Positions 9,642-20,442 of a stretch of DNA of 64,000 nucleotides are shown here, piece after piece (positions within the stretch are counted from its first letter, which is position 1; each line of letters opens with the position of its first letter). Source of the stretch: an uncultured Oligoflexia bacterium (lineage in GTDB: Bacteria > Bdellovibrionota > Bacteriovoracia > Bacteriovoracales > Bacteriovoracaceae); contig CAJXPQ010000001.1 of assembly GCA_913058265.1 (NCBI GenBank), positions 248,001-312,000 on the forward strand. The letters are read 5' to 3'. Both the position numbers and the translations under genes were made by a program. The notes under the pieces are model-generated. The model saw only the letters and a list, made by a program, of their open reading frames with translations. It did no database searches and was not told where the DNA came from.

Positions 9642-9980
9642 ATGAAAAAACTAATTATCTTGAGTATGACATTATCGTTTAACTGTTTTGCAATCTCTAT
9701 GAGTGATACTTGTGATACGGATCGCTTTAAAGCTGACTACGGAAAAGTTGCTGGAAGCTTTAAAGGTGCAAAAGAAAAGTACTTAAAAATAGCGACTGAT
9801 CTTCATTGTTACCCTAAAGGTAATGGTAAATGTAAGCATAATGAATTGGTACAAACAACAGCTGACTTTCAATTAAAAATTAGAGAGCTTACGGCCAAAT
9901 ATGAATTTGTGACTACCGCTTATGGAAATTGTTATCCAGAGAAAGTGGGAATACAAGACACACCATTTAATAAAAAATAA
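9642..9980 (+). CDS. Short secreted ORF, probably the 5' piece of a broken gene
   Basis: 112 residues beginning with a signal peptide (MKKLIILSMTLSFNCFA). The mature part has five cysteines (DTCDTD, LHCYPKGNGKCKH, GNCYPE) and a helical middle. It ends at TAA in an A-rich run (about 9972-9985). An adjacent reading frame then continues with secreted, Cys-containing sequence that has no signal peptide of its own. I therefore think this is the N-terminal part of one longer secreted protein interrupted by a frameshift, although it could also be expressed as a short protein. No family is recognised. Confidence 0.5.
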   Translation: MKKLIILSMTLSFNCFAISMSDTCDTDRFKADYGKVAGSFKGAKEKYLKIATDLHCYPKGNGKCKHNELVQTTADFQLKIRELTAKYEFVTTAYGNCYPEKVGIQDTPFNKK

Positions 9981-11408
9981 AATAAACGAACAACTCCAAG
10001 GCGGAGAATATGAAGTATCTACTTCTATTACTGTATATGCTGCCGCTCCTTGTGGAAGGAATATACCAAAAAGCCAATGTGAAACTAGTGGAACAAGAGG
10101 ACATCAAGCAATACCTGTCGGGAATACAGACCCGAGTGATGTAGATAGAGCTCAAGGAAATAAAGTTAGACTTAGAGTCTCTGCAAGAAATTACCTTACA
10201 GATATGGCGGGGAAGAGACATGCCGCCGCCGGTGGTAACTCAGATAAGCTCATAATAAAAGTTATGTCTCTAAGAGGACATAAGGCAAGCTATTGTATGC
10301 ACAAGGTTGGTGAAAGTTGTAATTTTAGTAACTTTGATAATATTAAAACAGGTGCTGGTAACGCTCATGTCGAGGCCATCGTTTCTATGAAAACAAACTT
10401 TACGACTGACCTATATAACCTAACAATCAAAAATGATTCAAGTGGTAGACAGAAAACAAGTGTCTTCTCTGTAATGCATAGGAGTGACTTTGGAACACCT
10501 GCTTGAAGAGTTGGAATGTGGGAGGACTATACTGGTCAGCCTCACCCTACAATTATGGATAATCTAACACCAACAAGTCATGCATCTAACTATTATTCAG
10601 GTCAGTCGTGTGATTGTATTGCAGCTCAAGCTTATACAAAAGATTCTGAAGGAAAGGTATGGAGATGTTCTGCAGCTTCAAACACACCTCCAGCAGAAAT
10701 GTCATGTATGTATTTTCATGATCCTAATGGTGATTCAAAACAAAGAGTCAGTCTATACGCTGCTATAAACCAGACAGTAGAGAGAACAATACAACTAGGA
10801 GCTCGCAATAATAGAGAAGTTGCATGTGATCCAGAGGATGAGTCAAAAGGAAATATTATATCTGCGAAATGGTTACAACAAAGAGTTAAATGTAATGCTA
10901 ACGGAAGCATAAGTAGTTTTGGCGGAACTTGGAGTCCTGCAAATGGTCAATCTAAGAGTGGATATATAGTACTTAACAATGAATGTACTGGAGAAGGGAC
11001 AAACCATACTCCTCCTAATCCAGATCCAATATCAGGCGAAGACCCAGTAATTACTCCTCCACCAGTCGTAGTTCCGCCAGAAGTAGTACCACCGGAAGTA
11101 GTACCAACAGTAGCGGCTGCATCTTGTATTTACTATGATTGGGTTGCTAGAGCTTCACCATATCTTTCACATACGCTTGCAGCAGGACAACTTCTATAAG
11201 AGGGCCCCCTAAGAAGACAACCACAAGAGCTTGTATGAGTGGTAATGGAAATATCACAACTGTTAAATATATTTTTCAGACCATTAAATGTGGACCTAAT
11301 GGTGATACAGCAGATGCTGGTTCAGGACTTGCTGAAGTAAGTAGTACTACAGAGGTTTTAAGTTCATTGAGCAATTGTAATGGTTCAAGTCAAAATATGG
11401 AACAATAG
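9981..11408 (+). pseudogene. Broken secreted protein gene (stop plus frameshifts)
   Basis: From about 9981 one frame is open to TGA at 10504-10506 and then continues in the same frame (RVGMWEDYTGQPHP) to TAA at 11197-11199. The following stretch to TAG at 11406-11408 is open in another frame (TTTRACMSGNGNITTVKYI), with GGGCCCCC near the switch. The pieces share style: Cys-rich and secreted-looking, with a Pro/Val linker (PPPVVVPPEVVPPEVVP) near 11060-11105. With the preceding signal-peptide ORF they would make one protein of about 585 residues. At least one nonsense and two frameshift lesions are needed to explain the arrangement. Function unknown; perhaps a surface or adhesin-like protein. 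Confidence 0.65.
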
Positions 11409-11505: not shown

Positions 11506-12426
11506 CTAAATTTTACCCATGAGGGCCTTAATATTAGTAATTCTTGAAACGGACTCTCCAAGATCAGGTCGATTGCTAATATCCTCAACTTCGTTATTTA
11601 CTCTATGACATCCAAGACTTGGATCCTCAACATAGTCTTTAGCCCCTCTAACAAGAATACCTTCAACCTTATTAGTAGTAGCATTAAAGACGGCCGAACC
11701 AGAGTTACCACCAAATGTATCAAGATTCGTTACGAAATATCCTTGGTTTGAATTTCTAAAAACTTTCCCACCCGTCGTTATTTTTTGTGGAAGTCCTGAA
11801 GGATGTCCAATAACATTTAGCTTTTGAGCATATCTAACTTTACCTTTTTTTCTGAACTTTAAAGGCGCTCTCCCCTCTACAACTCTATCAAGTCTTATTA
11901 ATGAATAATCTTGTGCATTTCCTGCAGTGACTTCAAGCTTCGACTCAATAACCTCTTTGCACTTAAAGACTCGAGACCTAGGGATCATTATATCTGCTCG
12001 TTTTGTGTCTGGGTTTATTTTGTAATCAAATACCCATGAAGATGATTCACAGTCTTCTTTGGTAAGAATACAGTGGCCAGCAGTAACTAATAAATCTTTT
12101 CCTACCAAGAAACCAGAACAGATTACTGACGATGGTTGACTTGAGAACTTCTCACCCTTACAAACCCTCATCTCTTTACTGAGAGTTGCAGGTGGCATTA
12201 TATAGTGGTTTTTAACAGGCACTAATTTGATATTCTTAATCATTCCTGCTGTTGAATGAGCAAGCTTCTGAAGTGATTCTGCTGCATCATAGGTCTCAAC
12301 TCTATTGTCTTCCCCATAGGCTATCTTAATTGAATCTGTGGTTACCGAGACAGATGCTGATACGAATGCAATTCCTTGTGTTGATAGAATTGTAATTAGC
12401 AGACTTGAACGTAATTTATAAAACAT
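11506..12426 (-). CDS. Secreted V8-like serine protease (S1 fold)
   Basis: 306 residues with an N-terminal export signal (about 1-25). The chymotrypsin-fold triad is visible: His in LLVTAGHCI (about 118), Asp in NAQDYSLIRLD (about 175) and Ser in TFGGNSGSAVF (about 243). GNSGS, rather than the trypsin-type GDSGGP, points to the V8/glutamyl-endopeptidase branch. The HCILTKEDCES region and the C-terminal SLGCHRV carry cysteines that may form disulfides. It is exported and may digest prey or extracellular protein; that role is inferred from the lifestyle. Monocistronic, with a terminator at 11435-11460. Confidence 0.85.
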   Translation of the reverse strand: MFYKLRSSLLITILSTQGIAFVSASVSVTTDSIKIAYGEDNRVETYDAAESLQKLAHSTAGMIKNIKLVPVKNHYIMPPATLSKEMRVCKGEKFSSQPSSVICSGFLVGKDLLVTAGHCILTKEDCESSSWVFDYKINPDTKRADIMIPRSRVFKCKEVIESKLEVTAGNAQDYSLIRLDRVVEGRAPLKFRKKGKVRYAQKLNVIGHPSGLPQKITTGGKVFRNSNQGYFVTNLDTFGGNSGSAVFNATTNKVEGILVRGAKDYVEDPSLGCHRVNNEVEDISNRPDLGESVSRITNIKALMGKI

Positions 12427-12612: not shown

Positions 12613-14004
12613 ATGAGCATTTTTGTAAATAGAGTTCTAAACATGAAGCATATTAAAGTCATTGGCTTTGATATGGACCACACTCTCGTGCGCTATCATA
12701 GTGATAAGTTTGAAGAGTTAACTTTTAATGAATCGGTTCAGAAACTGATATCAGATAAAGAGTATCCCAAAGAGATCTCTGAATTTAAATTTGACTTTAA
12801 TAGCGCTATTAGGGGTCTTATTGTTGATAAGGTTAATGGAAATATATTAAAAGTTAGTCTTTATAATAAAATTAAGACTGCCTACCATGGAACAAAAGTT
12901 CTTTCATACAAAGAACAGAAAAAGCTTTACCGCGGTTCAAGTGTCGATCTAAGTGAAGCTCAATACATGAGCATAGACACAACCTTCTCTATTGCTCACA
13001 CAGTCTTATTTGCACAGCTAGTAGATTTAAAAGACAAGAAGCCTGACCTCGACTTACCAGAGTACGCAAATATTGCTGATGATGTAACCTATGCGGTTGA
13101 TCTTGCCCATAGAGATGGCTCTCTTAAGGACGCTGTTAAATCAAATCTTGCTGATTATGTTATTAAGGATGAAAAGATAGTTAATGCCTTAGAAAAATAT
13201 GCAAAGTACGGTAAGCGTTTATGGGTTGTCACAAACTCGGATTATAACTACACCAAAGCTCTTCTTGACTATACAATAAATCCTTTTCTAAAGGATCACA
13301 AAGATTGGACAGAGCTATTTGAGATTACAGTAACCTTAGCATGCAAACCTCGTTTTTTTACTGATACCAATGCCTTTCTAAGTGTTGAGGACAACACTGG
13401 ACTAATGTCTAACTTTGATAAAAAAGTTGTGCCTGGAATATATCAAGGTGGGAATGCTATCAAGCTTCAAGTTGATATGGGTGTTAATGAAGATGAAATT
13501 CTTTATCTAGGTGATCATATTTACGGTGATATTGTAAAGCTTAAGAAAGCTTGTGGCTGGAGAACTGCTCTCGTTATTGAAGAGCTTGACCGTGAAGTTG
13601 CTGCCTATAAGAGCACTAAGGCAATCAGTATTGATATTGATAATTTAATGGAGCAAAAAATTGTGCTTGAGAAGCTGATTGATAACCTCTATTCCAAAGA
13701 GCATGAATTTGGCGAAAAAGTTGCGAAAGACGATGTCTTCTCAAAGTTTGATCAGATAGATAAAATTGATAAGCAAATCGGGTCTCTGATTAAGCAATAT
13801 GAAGCTAACTTTAACCATCACTGGGGTGAAGTTATGCGAGCTGGCGCAGAGCCAAGCATATTCGCCTCACAAGTTGAGAGATATGCTTGTATCTATATGA
13901 CTAAGGTTTCTGATTTTTGTGATTACAATCCAAGAAATTACTACCGTCCCTCAAAGAAGAAAATGTCTCACGAACTTAATTATTCTCTACCTTCAAGTTC
14001 TTGA
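12613..14004 (+). CDS. HAD-IG family 5'-nucleotidase
   Basis: 463 residues, a cytosolic purine 5'-nucleotidase-like HAD hydrolase (HAD-superfamily subfamily IG), which removes phosphate from nucleoside monophosphates. FVNRVLNMKHIKVIGFDMDH combines the family's N-terminal FVNR segment with the HAD nucleophile motif DMDHT. Later motifs are LWVVTNSDYNYTKALLDY (motif II) and ILYLGDHIYGDIVKLKK (the acidic motif III/IV). The first ATG is chosen because GAGGAAG lies at the right distance and FVNR is conserved. The last 25 bases overlap the convergent pilin-like gene. Nucleotide salvage from prey is a plausible role. Confidence 0.85.
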   Translation: MSIFVNRVLNMKHIKVIGFDMDHTLVRYHSDKFEELTFNESVQKLISDKEYPKEISEFKFDFNSAIRGLIVDKVNGNILKVSLYNKIKTAYHGTKVLSYKEQKKLYRGSSVDLSEAQYMSIDTTFSIAHTVLFAQLVDLKDKKPDLDLPEYANIADDVTYAVDLAHRDGSLKDAVKSNLADYVIKDEKIVNALEKYAKYGKRLWVVTNSDYNYTKALLDYTINPFLKDHKDWTELFEITVTLACKPRFFTDTNAFLSVEDNTGLMSNFDKKVVPGIYQGGNAIKLQVDMGVNEDEILYLGDHIYGDIVKLKKACGWRTALVIEELDREVAAYKSTKAISIDIDNLMEQKIVLEKLIDNLYSKEHEFGEKVAKDDVFSKFDQIDKIDKQIGSLIKQYEANFNHHWGEVMRAGAEPSIFASQVERYACIYMTKVSDFCDYNPRNYYRPSKKKMSHELNYSLPSSS

Positions 14005-15206
14005 TTCTTTGCTTTAAGTAGTTCGATTTCTTTTTTAAGTTCTTTAATAGACTCAATCATTATAGGAATCAGTTGTGAGTACTCAACTGATTTATAATCA
14101 TTAGGCCCTGTGGACACAATTGTAGGAAGAACCCTTTCAACGTTTTGTGCAATTAACCCTATTTGCTTTTGATTAGAGAACTTCATTTTAGGGTATTCAT
14201 CTACTCTCATTTGATAAGTGACACCGTTCAATTGAGAAATTGTATCAAGCGCATTTGCTATAGGCTCAATTTCTTTTTTAAATCTTTCATCAGATAAGAA
14301 AAAATAATTAAACGCCCAATGTCTTGGTGCACTTAATTCATTTTGAGCTATAATGGTATCACTTGACTCAAAACTTGAGTTCAATTTTAGAACATCAGCC
14401 TCTTTCCAAAGTCCAATTTCATTATTTAAGCCAAAGGTAATAGCGGAGTTATCAGCTATCGCTAACCCATGCTTAACAGGACCCACAGGAGCTTGTACCC
14501 AGTTTTGACCAATGACAGGAGCAAGTGACAAGGATGCAGTTTCATCATTACTTAGTAAATCCGCCTGACCTATTAACGCCCTAGGATTATCTCCCATGCC
14601 CAGGAATGCAATATATGTTCCTGTAGTATCATTTTCTGCCCTCCAAAGTTCTGTTCCTGCACCTCCACCAAAAGCGGAGAAACAAGAGCTAATAACTAAA
14701 GAAGCCGGGTTATTAACAACTTCACAGGTAAGAGGTATTTTGACACTAATATGCTTACCACCGTATGAAGTATTTTGGTTATTTCTGACAAGAGTCAATT
14801 GTAATTCACATGAACCTATTGGTGAATTTACTCTCTTACTTTCAAATTGAGTTATAATTCCCTTTTCAACATCAAAGCCAGGAGCAGACAAGAGTCTAGT
14901 ACCGACAGTAAATTTGATTCCTCCGGCAGCAGCGAACCTATCAGTGACGTCTGTCTCAAGTGCAGATATATCTAGTCCTCCTGTAGGTGCTGTGGAACCA
15001 AGCATATCAGTACAAAACTCTTTATCACCTAATCTAGATTGAAGATTTGTTTTGAAGCCAATTAGGTCAGAGTCAGACTTAACTTTTTGCATGGTTTTTT
15101 GGGATGTTTTATTCATTCTCATTATCCCCATTGCAATTCCGATAGAAATTGCAGAGGCGATCATTACTTGTATGAGAGACATTCCTTTGTCATTAAAAAT
15201 TTTCAT
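13980..15206 (-). CDS. Pilin-like protein fused to a Peptidase_S74 chaperone domain
   Basis: 408 residues from the ATG at 15206; a TTG 9 bases upstream is less likely. The N-terminus MKIFNDKG/MSLIQVMIASA is a class III prepilin leader and hydrophobic helix, with Gln at position 5 of the mature protein where Glu is usual. A middle region of about 240 residues with three or four Cys follows. The C-terminal 105 residues match the intramolecular chaperone of endosialidase (Peptidase_S74): SDERFKKEIEPI, then KQIGLIAQNVERVLPTIV, then YSQLIPIMIESIKELKKEIE. In phage tail spikes this domain trimerises and cleaves itself off before the Ser. The gene is coupled (TAATG) to the upstream secreted-protein gene. 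A pilus-tip or surface adhesin is plausible, in the manner of plasmid PilV. Confidence 0.8.
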   Translation of the reverse strand: MKIFNDKGMSLIQVMIASAISIGIAMGIMRMNKTSQKTMQKVKSDSDLIGFKTNLQSRLGDKEFCTDMLGSTAPTGGLDISALETDVTDRFAAAGGIKFTVGTRLLSAPGFDVEKGIITQFESKRVNSPIGSCELQLTLVRNNQNTSYGGKHISVKIPLTCEVVNNPASLVISSCFSAFGGGAGTELWRAENDTTGTYIAFLGMGDNPRALIGQADLLSNDETASLSLAPVIGQNWVQAPVGPVKHGLAIADNSAITFGLNNEIGLWKEADVLKLNSSFESSDTIIAQNELSAPRHWAFNYFFLSDERFKKEIEPIANALDTISQLNGVTYQMRVDEYPKMKFSNQKQIGLIAQNVERVLPTIVSTGPNDYKSVEYSQLIPIMIESIKELKKEIELLKAKNQELEGRE

Positions 15207-15997
15207 TACGGACAAACCTCAACTTTCAACCCTGGGTTGATTTCATTGGCCGGAGAGGTAAAAGAATCCCACTCCTCAGGACTATTTGTTGGTATAAACT
15301 GAGCAATACTTCTTTCATTTGTTATACATCTACATATATTATATAAATTTAAACACATTCTCTCATCTTGTTTTACAAAGAATCCATTATCTTGACTATT
15401 TGCATGATCAGGCTGAGATGGACCGATTGGAAAGCCTACAAAGTTTTTTGGCATTAATGGTACATTCAGCATTTCTATAAAATTTGGCATTTTTGCCAAT
15501 AGTGTTTGTCGCTTACTCTTAAAATCACCTGTAGGACGTAACCATACATTGGCCTTCTTAGCGGTCAAACCGCTTGGGGTAGGTCTTGTTCGAATACTGG
15601 AGATAACACTCAAATCAGTAATACCTGCTCGAGCTAGCACATTTACAGCAATACCGCCGTCTATTGGACCGAGTGGAGCTGTACCATCGATTGGACCGAG
15701 TGGAGCTGTACCATCGATTCCACTTGGCGAGAGTGCAGCATTGACAGCACTATCTCCAATCATAGAGTCACTTTTATATGCCTTACATTTGTCACTAAAA
15801 AAATTTTTTTTACATTTCCACTCCCACCCATAAGGAGTATCCCTCATACTTTTCACGGAGCCTTTCTTACATAGGTCAGATGATGGCTTTGAAGGAAATT
15901 GCATTTTATGAGCTCCACCACACTTTCCTTTAAATGGCCCTGCATGGGAAATAGCAGTAACGGAAAATATCAAACAAACGAGAGTCATGTTGTTCAT
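15206..15997 (-). CDS. Secreted Cys-rich protein with a 9-residue tandem repeat
   Basis: 263 residues with a signal peptide (about 1-19, ending AISHA). Residues 25-75 hold five or six cysteines (KGKCGGAH, SDLCKKG, EWKCKKNF, DKCKAY) in a compact Lys-rich module. Around residues 95-115 two copies of DGTAPLGPI arise from a perfect 27-base duplication. Three closely spaced Cys (NLYNICRC region) follow near residue 225, and one ends the protein. Its stop is fused to the start of the pilin-S74 gene, so the two products probably work together, for example as a surface appendage or its assembly partner. No known family. Confidence 0.65.
   Translation of the reverse strand: MNNMTLVCLIFSVTAISHAGPFKGKCGGAHKMQFPSKPSSDLCKKGSVKSMRDTPYGWEWKCKKNFFSDKCKAYKSDSMIGDSAVNAALSPSGIDGTAPLGPIDGTAPLGPIDGGIAVNVLARAGITDLSVISSIRTRPTPSGLTAKKANVWLRPTGDFKSKRQTLLAKMPNFIEMLNVPLMPKNFVGFPIGPSQPDHANSQDNGFFVKQDERMCLNLYNICRCITNERSIAQFIPTNSPEEWDSFTSPANEINPGLKVEVCP
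15663..15716. repeat. Perfect 27-bp tandem duplication
   Basis: Two identical 27-base units (15663-15689 and 15690-15716) lie in frame in the secreted Cys-rich protein gene. They add nine residues per copy (DGTAPLGPI), which suggests a recent slippage event. Confidence 0.9.
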
Positions 15998-18792: not shown

Positions 18793-19789
18793 TAAAGTTT
18801 TTATTGAAAAAAAGTCATATCAAAAAGACAATACAAAAAGCATCTTAAATAAAGTGAAGTATAATAGCTTGATTGAAATCGATGATATCTCTAAACATTG
18901 GGGCACATATAAAAAACCCTACCTTCACAAAAGAACGAACCTCAACCTCTATATCGGTGAAAAAAAAGGGACTTTAGTAAAAGAGGCCCCTCCAGCATAC
19001 GGACATGGTACTGAGAAGCATTACTATTTTATTCATGCCTATAATTGCATCTATGAATGTCAGTACTGCTATTTACAAGGACATTTTAACTCTCCAGATA
19101 TAGTTTTATTTATAAATCACGAAGATATTGTAAAAGAGATGGAAGAGCTCTGTGGTCTTGAAGAAAATATGGACGCTTGGTTTCACGCTGGGGAATTTTC
19201 GGATTCTCTGGCCCTCAGCCATATTACAAATGAGTTAGAAATATATTTTGATTTTTTTAAAAGATATCCGCAAACAAAACTTGAGTTAAGAACAAAGTCA
19301 TCTAACATATTGCCTCTGCTTAAATTAGAGCCTCTCAAGAATGTCTTTGTAAGTTTTACCCTCTCTTCTCATGAAGCAGGAAAGGCATTTGACTATAGAT
19401 GCCCCTCAGTAAGATCAAGGCTGACTAGTATTAAGAAACTTGTTGAGCATGGGTTCAATATAGGTATTCACTTTGACCCTATAATATATCATCCAAATTT
19501 TGAGCAAGATTACGAAAAGTTATTAACTGAACTGGCCAGTATTCTCCCTTCTGAGCAGCTCGGCTATATATCAATTGGTGTCGTAAGATTTACAAAAGAT
19601 GTATATAAAGAAGTTGAAAATAATTACCCTGACTCTCCTATTACAAAACAAGATTATATTAAAAGTTTTGATAATAAAGTTCGCTATAATCTTGCCATGA
19701 GAATGTGGATTTTAAATACAGTAAAAAATATTTGTATTAAGAATGAATATGAAGAGTCAAAGATTTATTTATGTATGGAAGATCAATAA
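18785..19789 (+). CDS. Spore photoproduct lyase-like radical SAM protein
   Basis: 334 residues from the ATG at 18785. The radical SAM cluster motif is CIYECQYCYLQGHF (Cys-x3-Cys-x2-Cys, about 90-97), with the YLQ extension typical of spore photoproduct lyase, which reverses spore thymine dimers. ELRTKSSNI and GIHFDPIIYHPNFEQDY also fit the SPL family. At the place where Bacillus SPL carries its hydrogen-donor Cys (FEAxCTSD-like), this protein reads WFHAGEFSDSLAL with no Cys. The substrate may therefore differ from spore DNA; sporulation is not expected here. Coupled to the nucleosidase-like gene and overlapping the convergent protease gene by 7 bases. Confidence 0.8.
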   Translation: MFDKVFIEKKSYQKDNTKSILNKVKYNSLIEIDDISKHWGTYKKPYLHKRTNLNLYIGEKKGTLVKEAPPAYGHGTEKHYYFIHAYNCIYECQYCYLQGHFNSPDIVLFINHEDIVKEMEELCGLEENMDAWFHAGEFSDSLALSHITNELEIYFDFFKRYPQTKLELRTKSSNILPLLKLEPLKNVFVSFTLSSHEAGKAFDYRCPSVRSRLTSIKKLVEHGFNIGIHFDPIIYHPNFEQDYEKLLTELASILPSEQLGYISIGVVRFTKDVYKEVENNYPDSPITKQDYIKSFDNKVRYNLAMRMWILNTVKNICIKNEYEESKIYLCMEDQ

Positions 19790-20442
19790 GGAGCAACTTC
19801 CTTCATTTCTAAATTAAATATCCAATCATGATGCGAACTTAAATTTACAATATATGTTTTGTCATTATCTTCGAGAGTAGAATGAATACCAATTAATTTA
19901 TGTCCTGAATCTGTTGTTTCGAAAATCGGTCCACCAGAATCACCTATAACACTTAAACAATCTTTTAACATAAAGTTTTTTAGATTAAACCCAGTACTAA
20001 GGTACTTTGGATTAGTCCAAGTTTTAATATTTCGCCCATCTCTTCCACCATAGCCGACTCTCTCCAGTACAGAATTCTCATCTATGTTTTGATTCTTAGA
20101 AATAGTTTCATAATGTGTAAATACTGGCAGGTCTTCTGTCAGATAAACAACAGCAATATCATTTTCATAAAAAGATTTGCTTGGGTTGTAGCCTGGATTA
20201 ATGATCCAGTAGTTTGCCTCAATACGTTCCGAGTCTACTGTATACTCGTGGCCCAAACAAAGTGTCACAGATTCAGCTGCATCTATACTGTGCGCAGCAG
20301 TTAGAATGGTTCTTTTATCAATGGCTACTGCTGTAGAGGTATAGACTATACCACCCCTTACAACTTCTATGAGAAAAACTGAATTAAATCGTCCCCAATT
20401 TAAATCACTCTTGTTCTGAATATTATTAGATTGTGTGATCAT
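19783..20442 (-). CDS. Trypsin-like serine protease, no evident signal peptide
   Basis: 219 residues. The S1 triad is present: His in TILTAAHSID, Asp in YENDIAVVYL and Ser in VIGDSGGPIFE. GHKLIGIHSTLED precedes the end. The N-terminus (MITQSNNIQNKSDLNWGRFN) is hydrophilic with no export signal, unlike the protease at 11506-12426. Either it acts inside the cell, is exported by another route, or its true start is missed; I see no upstream signal-like extension. There is only one Cys in the catalytic region, so few or no disulfides, which fits a cytoplasmic location. Confidence 0.8.
   Translation of the reverse strand: MITQSNNIQNKSDLNWGRFNSVFLIEVVRGGIVYTSTAVAIDKRTILTAAHSIDAAESVTLCLGHEYTVDSERIEANYWIINPGYNPSKSFYENDIAVVYLTEDLPVFTHYETISKNQNIDENSVLERVGYGGRDGRNIKTWTNPKYLSTGFNLKNFMLKDCLSVIGDSGGPIFETTDSGHKLIGIHSTLEDNDKTYIVNLSSHHDWIFNLEMKEVAPY

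Follow-up and report, generated by a model that had tools for sequence, protein, structure and literature searches.

The gene on the minus strand at positions 13980–15206 raises the question of what a protein could do that begins like a type IV prepilin and ends in a chaperone domain of the kind found in phage tail fibers. It lies in a 64,000-nucleotide stretch of DNA (the window) from a marine relative of the predatory Bdellovibrio. An earlier reading made from the letters alone (the sequence-only reading) had placed the ORF at exactly these coordinates, and an ORF check showed its observation to be real: from ATG to stop, the gene encodes a fusion of 408 amino acids, with an in-frame TTG 9 nt upstream of the ATG. 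The fusion gene was delimited from the ORF, Pfam and an alignment of homologues.

The C-terminal part of the fusion (aa 305–408; 13983–14294, minus strand) is an S74 intramolecular chaperone by Pfam, by its invariant residues and by fold comparison. Peptidase_S74 (PF13884) matches aa 305–364 of 408 in Pfam at E=2.2e-16, scoring 60.3 bits where 22 would suffice, and the motifs SDERFK (305–310) and QIGLIAQNVE (348–357) are present, including the catalytic SDxxxK. The intact domain claimed by the sequence-only reading is thus confirmed by a C-terminal profile match above the curated cut-off, with the Ser305/Lys310 dyad whole; this Ser..Lys motif is kept in 114 of the 114 S74 proteins compared. 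Self-cleavage is predicted between Leu304 and Ser305, and a C-terminal helix spans 376–406. In a PDB sequence search, the full-length fusion matches the phage long tail fiber distal subunit 6f45 (E=1.4e-8), and in PHROGs aa ~298–404 match tail families (best E=3.5e-30). Foldseek matched the model of the S74 domain to the ICA domain of MyRF (7dc3, E=6e-5); its matches to endosialidase chaperones were weaker. MyRF is a eukaryotic membrane-anchored protein that cleaves itself. The chaperones of phage tail fibers and endosialidases and the MyRF ICA share with the fusion the C-terminal domain, the fold and the dyad, but differ in N-terminal context, which is a virion protein in phages and a membrane-bound transcription factor in MyRF, as opposed to the pilin module of the fusion. 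The nearest tested homologue is the S74 domain of Bdellovibrio Bd3182, which was shown to cut itself, and the domain has been described as a chaperone ensuring trimerization (PMC10769870).

At the other end, the N-terminus MKIFNDKG^MSLIQVMIASAISIGIAMGIMRM (the caret marks the predicted cut) resembles a class III leader by sequence, and both the leader and the mature start MSLIQVMIASAISIG proposed earlier were borne out. The leader (aa 1–8; 15183–15206, minus strand) ends in Gly8, after which PilD is predicted to cut. To place this N-terminus we aligned 21 modules, 19 taken from S74 proteins and 2 from minor pilins of this genome that have no S74; M1, G8 (the Gly at –1) and C65 are common to all 21. 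The proposed profile check was borne out for Peptidase_S74 and only indirectly for N_methyl (PF07963), which the fusion alone did not match in Pfam at E≤1 but which 12 of the 21 modules matched at E≤0.1, as did 15 for PRK10557 and 8 for TIGR02532. The best pilin-family matches of the fusion itself were sub-threshold (ComGE, 0.14; PRK10557, 0.13). Because the fusion alone misses N_methyl, the prepilin call rests on its homologues, and it is only through them that the fusion is classed, at the level of sequence, as a putative pilin. A profile of the modules matches geopilin (1.9e-4) and TcpA (1.8e-3) by sequence in the PDB, TcpA being a major pilin.

The pilin module (aa 9–177; 14676–15182, minus strand), delimited from AlphaFold2 models, alignments and the family matches of homologues, consists of a long N-terminal helix (10–59) followed by a strand-rich part, with the invariant Cys65 and, in the fusions, Cys175. 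Modeled alone with AlphaFold2, it gave a helix at 11–59 and four main strands; no pilin was among the Foldseek matches of this model in the PDB. Glu at position +5 is usual in major pilins. Most of the homologues have it, and four, the fusion included, carry Gln, as the sequence-only reading had correctly observed for the mature protein; a 721-aa modular pilin of the same genome (locus L091) likewise has Gln at +5. Since TcpB with E5Q or E5V still assembles pili and GspK is without Glu5 (PMC5207764), Gln5 fits a tip position and is compatible with the minor or tip pilin suggested from it.

Between the two ends lies a variable stretch of 127 residues (aa 178–304; 14295–14675, minus strand), predicted to be a fiber, the length of which differs strongly across 16 pilin-S74 fusions. 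In the AlphaFold2 monomer of the full fusion, the helix at 10–59 is followed by strands up to residue 177, pLDDT falls below 50 over 180–301, and the S74 domain is confident; the models are of monomers only, in which an intertwined trimer is not expected to appear. In a pattern search, the capping-loop motif of the MAT/S74 type, GNVGIGTxxPxxxLxV, was absent from the fusion in the window and present in the middle region of 6 of the 16 fusions. Invariant across the 16 are the Gly at –1, the two Cys of the module, and the S-D...K and G..AQ of the S74 domain.

The architecture recurs within the same genome and among its relatives. The genome (3.23 Mb in 25 contigs) has exactly three S74 matches, all with prepilin-like N-termini: the fusion, a protein of 534 aa on contig C4 beginning MTKSVRVVLDQSG^ISMVQVMISVG, and one on contig C6 beginning MKKHKILSNELG^ASLVEVMAASAIS. 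A scan of genome contigs with a three-row alignment recovered three loci only. The genome also encodes a prepilin peptidase in a type IVa pilus region, as well as a GspGHIJK type II secretion cluster, the names of these genes, like those of recX and recA below, being assigned by reading their sequences. In this genome the C6 paralogue adjoins recX-recA, as it does in three named Halobacteriovoraceae MAGs that include one of the same genus, and in a fifth genome (G123) a pilin-S74 paralogue lies in the matching place on the recX side (loci L095, L100, L101, L102 and L145). These proteins measure 479–721 aa, and the length of the middle changes while the neighbors remain constant; the recX-linked paralogue is a long-resident gene. 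Contig C18 of a same-genus genome (G025) carries the same pilin-S74 protein, and by kinship the host is placed with the Halobacteriovoraceae (Bdellovibrionota). PF13884 is present in 84 of the 129 genomes of the host's family, and about 28 of the complete S74 proteins fetched are of the pilin type, nearly all from genomes of that family; the N-terminal classes are regex calls from which three doubtful pilin calls (L057, L062 and L207) were removed by eye, and class counts in this set, which is not a random sample, are not frequencies. Other S74 proteins start with a secreted domain resembling that of MATs (SYSGRL...GP), or with a lipoprotein signal that precedes a 'VQVxNNQLIIxG' stretch. A phage origin of the fusion was considered and rejected, with no relative in viral contigs in a search that sees close relatives only, and no copy of the partner domain described below in phage records.

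Several further arrangements were seen at these loci. Pilin-S74 genes stand in tandem at L143, L146, L153 and L155, with three overlapping copies at L153, which suggests local duplication of fiber genes. Eleven bases after the C4 pilin-S74 gene begins the gene of a 134-aa Cys-rich protein of secreted type (L096:4159–4563, plus strand), which is without the partner domain and could be a partner of a different kind. Contigs C1, C2 and C4 (L091, L092 and L093) have operons for large, modular minor pilins of up to 721 aa, and these pilins have Cys-rich 'CG...C..G...W.C' repeats, to which a Cys segment in the 263-aa neighbor of the fusion is similar. Short S74 proteins of 147–178 aa with no signal peptide, apparently cytoplasmic and with the pattern …EFNLQEIEEEVLNESIYLDVFAGSDxRFK…, are found in five genomes (L024, L070, L071, L072 and L073). 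In the window itself, a secreted trypsin-like protease (Trypsin_2, E=4e-17) is encoded at 11506–12426 (minus strand), and another trypsin-like ORF was recognized by eye at 19783–20442 (minus strand). At 9642–11199 (plus strand), three ORFs of 112, 194 and 227 aa follow one another, each in a different frame and the first two overlapping; they had no family matches and are possibly one frameshifted gene for a secreted protein.

The gene immediately upstream of the fusion (15206–15997, minus strand) encodes a 263-aa protein with a secreted-type N-terminus and a Cys-containing segment near aa 26–74, and its stop overlaps the start of the fusion by one base (TAATG). Apart from the protein itself, a search of the host family with it yielded nine weak matches, most of them confined to the last ~60 residues, and four of the nine sat in genes right beside S74 genes. 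We refer to this segment of ~65 aa (about aa 195–262; 15212–15415, minus strand) as the partner domain, which recurs beside S74 genes; none of the members tested matched an entry of Pfam, NCBIfam, PHROGs or phage records, and the whole 263-aa protein likewise fell into no Pfam or PHROGs family. A profile of the domain recovered 28 copies in 21 of the 129 host-family genomes, from 11 genera, and 23 of the 28 are immediate neighbors of an S74 gene: 21 downstream on the same strand, the upstream one in the window and one convergent. If each genome is taken to hold 3,300 genes, and with S74 matches numbering 251, chance adjacency is ~0.12% per gene; the binomial value is then 4e-63, which treats as independent copies that are not, so that the case for linkage rests on its recurrence in different genera. 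When the window sequence was left out of the model, the partner domain in the window was still recovered (leave-one-out, E=1.5e-10).

Most S74-linked partners of the family are long secreted proteins in which the domain is N-terminal, and those that were scanned have fibrinogen-like repeats; in the protein of the window, it stands at the C-terminus. Across the phylum the domain is present in 56 of 369 genomes. Of the 32 copies inspected outside the host family, about 10 lie next to S74 genes, for the most part in genomes called Bdellovibrio-like from an inferred family identity, and beyond these two groups the domain mostly heads stand-alone secreted proteins, by which a strict link to S74 was rejected there. 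The idea that the partner gene always accompanies pilin-S74 genes was also rejected, since most of these are without it; beside a pilin-type fusion, it was found in the window and, elsewhere, in genome G007 alone. At one locus (L166:738–1442, plus strand), an ORF with a helix-turn-helix-like start and an S74-like C-terminal tail lies just before a partner gene; it may be what remained after the fiber gene was deleted. The linkage pattern suggests, by analogy with TcpB-TcpF, a pair made of a fiber and a secreted adhesin. Extended to the Bdellovibrionota, this leads to a tentative proposal, which we regard as possible but hold at less than even probability: that two-piece adhesins consist of an S74-chaperoned trimeric fiber and a secreted receptor-binding protein, encoded by the adjacent gene, that docks through the ~65-aa domain. 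It is equally tentative that a pilin, a MAT domain or a lipid would serve as the anchor of the fiber in such an adhesin, and that removal of S74 would uncover the docking end.

Taken together, we consider that the fusion is probably a minor, and probably a tip, type IV pilin which displays an S74-folded trimeric fiber of the phage-tail type. Prepilin peptidase would cut off MKIFNDKG, and the hydrophobic helix would then seat the protein in the inner membrane. By what is known of S74 biochemistry, three chains may be joined by their S74 domains, which would template a trimeric β-structure of aa ~180–304, and a cut before Ser305 would let S74 depart and expose the end of the fiber. An S74 trimer on a pilin would imply three pilin modules and one trimeric fiber, a stoichiometry known from TcpB/CofB. 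The three modules might initiate a type IV filament or form its cap, taking the fiber with them through the secretin; the tip is favored because of Gln5 and bulk. The fiber end, perhaps with the secreted partner encoded by the neighboring gene, may bind a surface, for example that of another bacterium, and its relatives are the basis for supposing that the organism may be a predator and that the fiber may grip prey. The sequences establish the architecture and its conservation, the intact dyad, the pilus machinery in the genome and the gene linkage; processing, trimer, cleavage, filament entry and binding are the putative part. Against this reading count the miss of the fusion in the N_methyl model, the Foldseek comparison of the module that returned no pilin, the low confidence of the middle in the monomer and its lack of the capping-loop motif, and Gln in place of Glu5. 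The self-cleaving tip of the sequence-only reading holds in its components, a pilin-type N-terminus and an S74 domain with its dyad, but not in its geometry, the S74 being the part removed, so that the fiber left behind would be the tip.

A different reading of the same protein gives the prepilin-like segment no role beyond membrane anchoring or export, with a trimer that stays at the inner membrane or in the periplasm and never enters a filament. Most pilin-S74 genes are solitary and away from pilus operons, the globular part is without a pilin match in Foldseek, and MyRF, a relative by fold, combines membrane anchoring with self-cleavage; the module is, however, common to minor pilins in the modular operons of the same genome, and the leader Gly together with the mostly kept Glu5 points to processing and assembly, which makes this reading unlikely. 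The fusion might instead belong to the pseudopilus of a type II secretion system, where it would assist in loading or expelling the secreted protein encoded next to it, a role that the GspGHIJK cluster, weak matches of some homologous modules to GspH, GspI and GspJ models and the secreted type of the neighbor would suit. We judge it slightly less probable again, as the Gsp cluster already has minor pseudopilins of its own, the fusion gene is located elsewhere, and most fusions are without a secreted neighbor.

The name of the family would suggest a peptidase, with S74 cutting other proteins at the pilus, but this is very improbable: the catalytic dyad is intact and Raynaud 2021 takes the architecture as peptidase activity (PMC8179133), but the Bd3182 domain cut itself, and the published description is of a trimerization chaperone (PMC10769870).

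Against this background we return to the minor pilin with an S74-folded fiber and to its known relatives. The modular pilins of Raynaud 2021 have the same pilin N-terminus and C-terminal S74 as the fusion, and pilin plus S74 (IPR012902-IPR030392) is among the 15 commonest architectures of that survey; the architecture has therefore been on record since 2021 (PMC8179133). The survey gives it no partner and reads its function only as a peptidase, and the member in the window is too divergent for the pilin motif model. A literature search pairing pilin with peptidase_S74 found no paper. By the libraries and literature searched, two things are new: the linked partner domain, and the recurrence of pilin-S74 in the host family, where S74 fibers have three or more kinds of N-terminal anchor including this one. 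Recognition of other cells by relatives of Bdellovibrio is poorly understood; if the reading is true, pilin-anchored S74 fibers would put phage-style receptor-binding fibers on a retractable pilus, and the partner domain is a concrete, testable candidate for what the exposed fiber end holds, Bdellovibrio-type fibers included.

The MAT fibers of Bdellovibrio bacteriovorus, which also belong to the Bdellovibrionota, are chimeric fiber proteins, 13 of 21 ending in S74, with a signal peptide, a conserved β-domain of ~130 aa and usually ~1,000 aa in all (PMC10769870); the fusion has a prepilin-like module in place of that N-terminal domain, on which ground membership of the MAT superfamily was rejected. 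MAT relatives in the host family also adjoin the partner gene; the text of the 2024 MAT paper had no match for fibrinogen, an operon, or an adjacent or neighboring gene. TcpB and CofB, minor pilins of type IVb systems, are trimeric; models place the trimers at the tips of pili, and each holds a secreted protein from its own operon (PMC9565799). We propose TcpB-TcpF and CofB-CofJ as the working analogue of the fusion and its partner, with the difference that no S74 chaperone is involved there; TcpB/CofB were absent from the PDB sequence matches of the full fusion (E≤1) and of the pilin-module profile. The Kil pili of Myxococcus, itself a bacterial predator, are Tad pili for which no S74 is reported in the part of the source drawn on here (PMC12075869), and with the fusion as we read it they share tips made of minor pilins, which in Kil are interchangeable.
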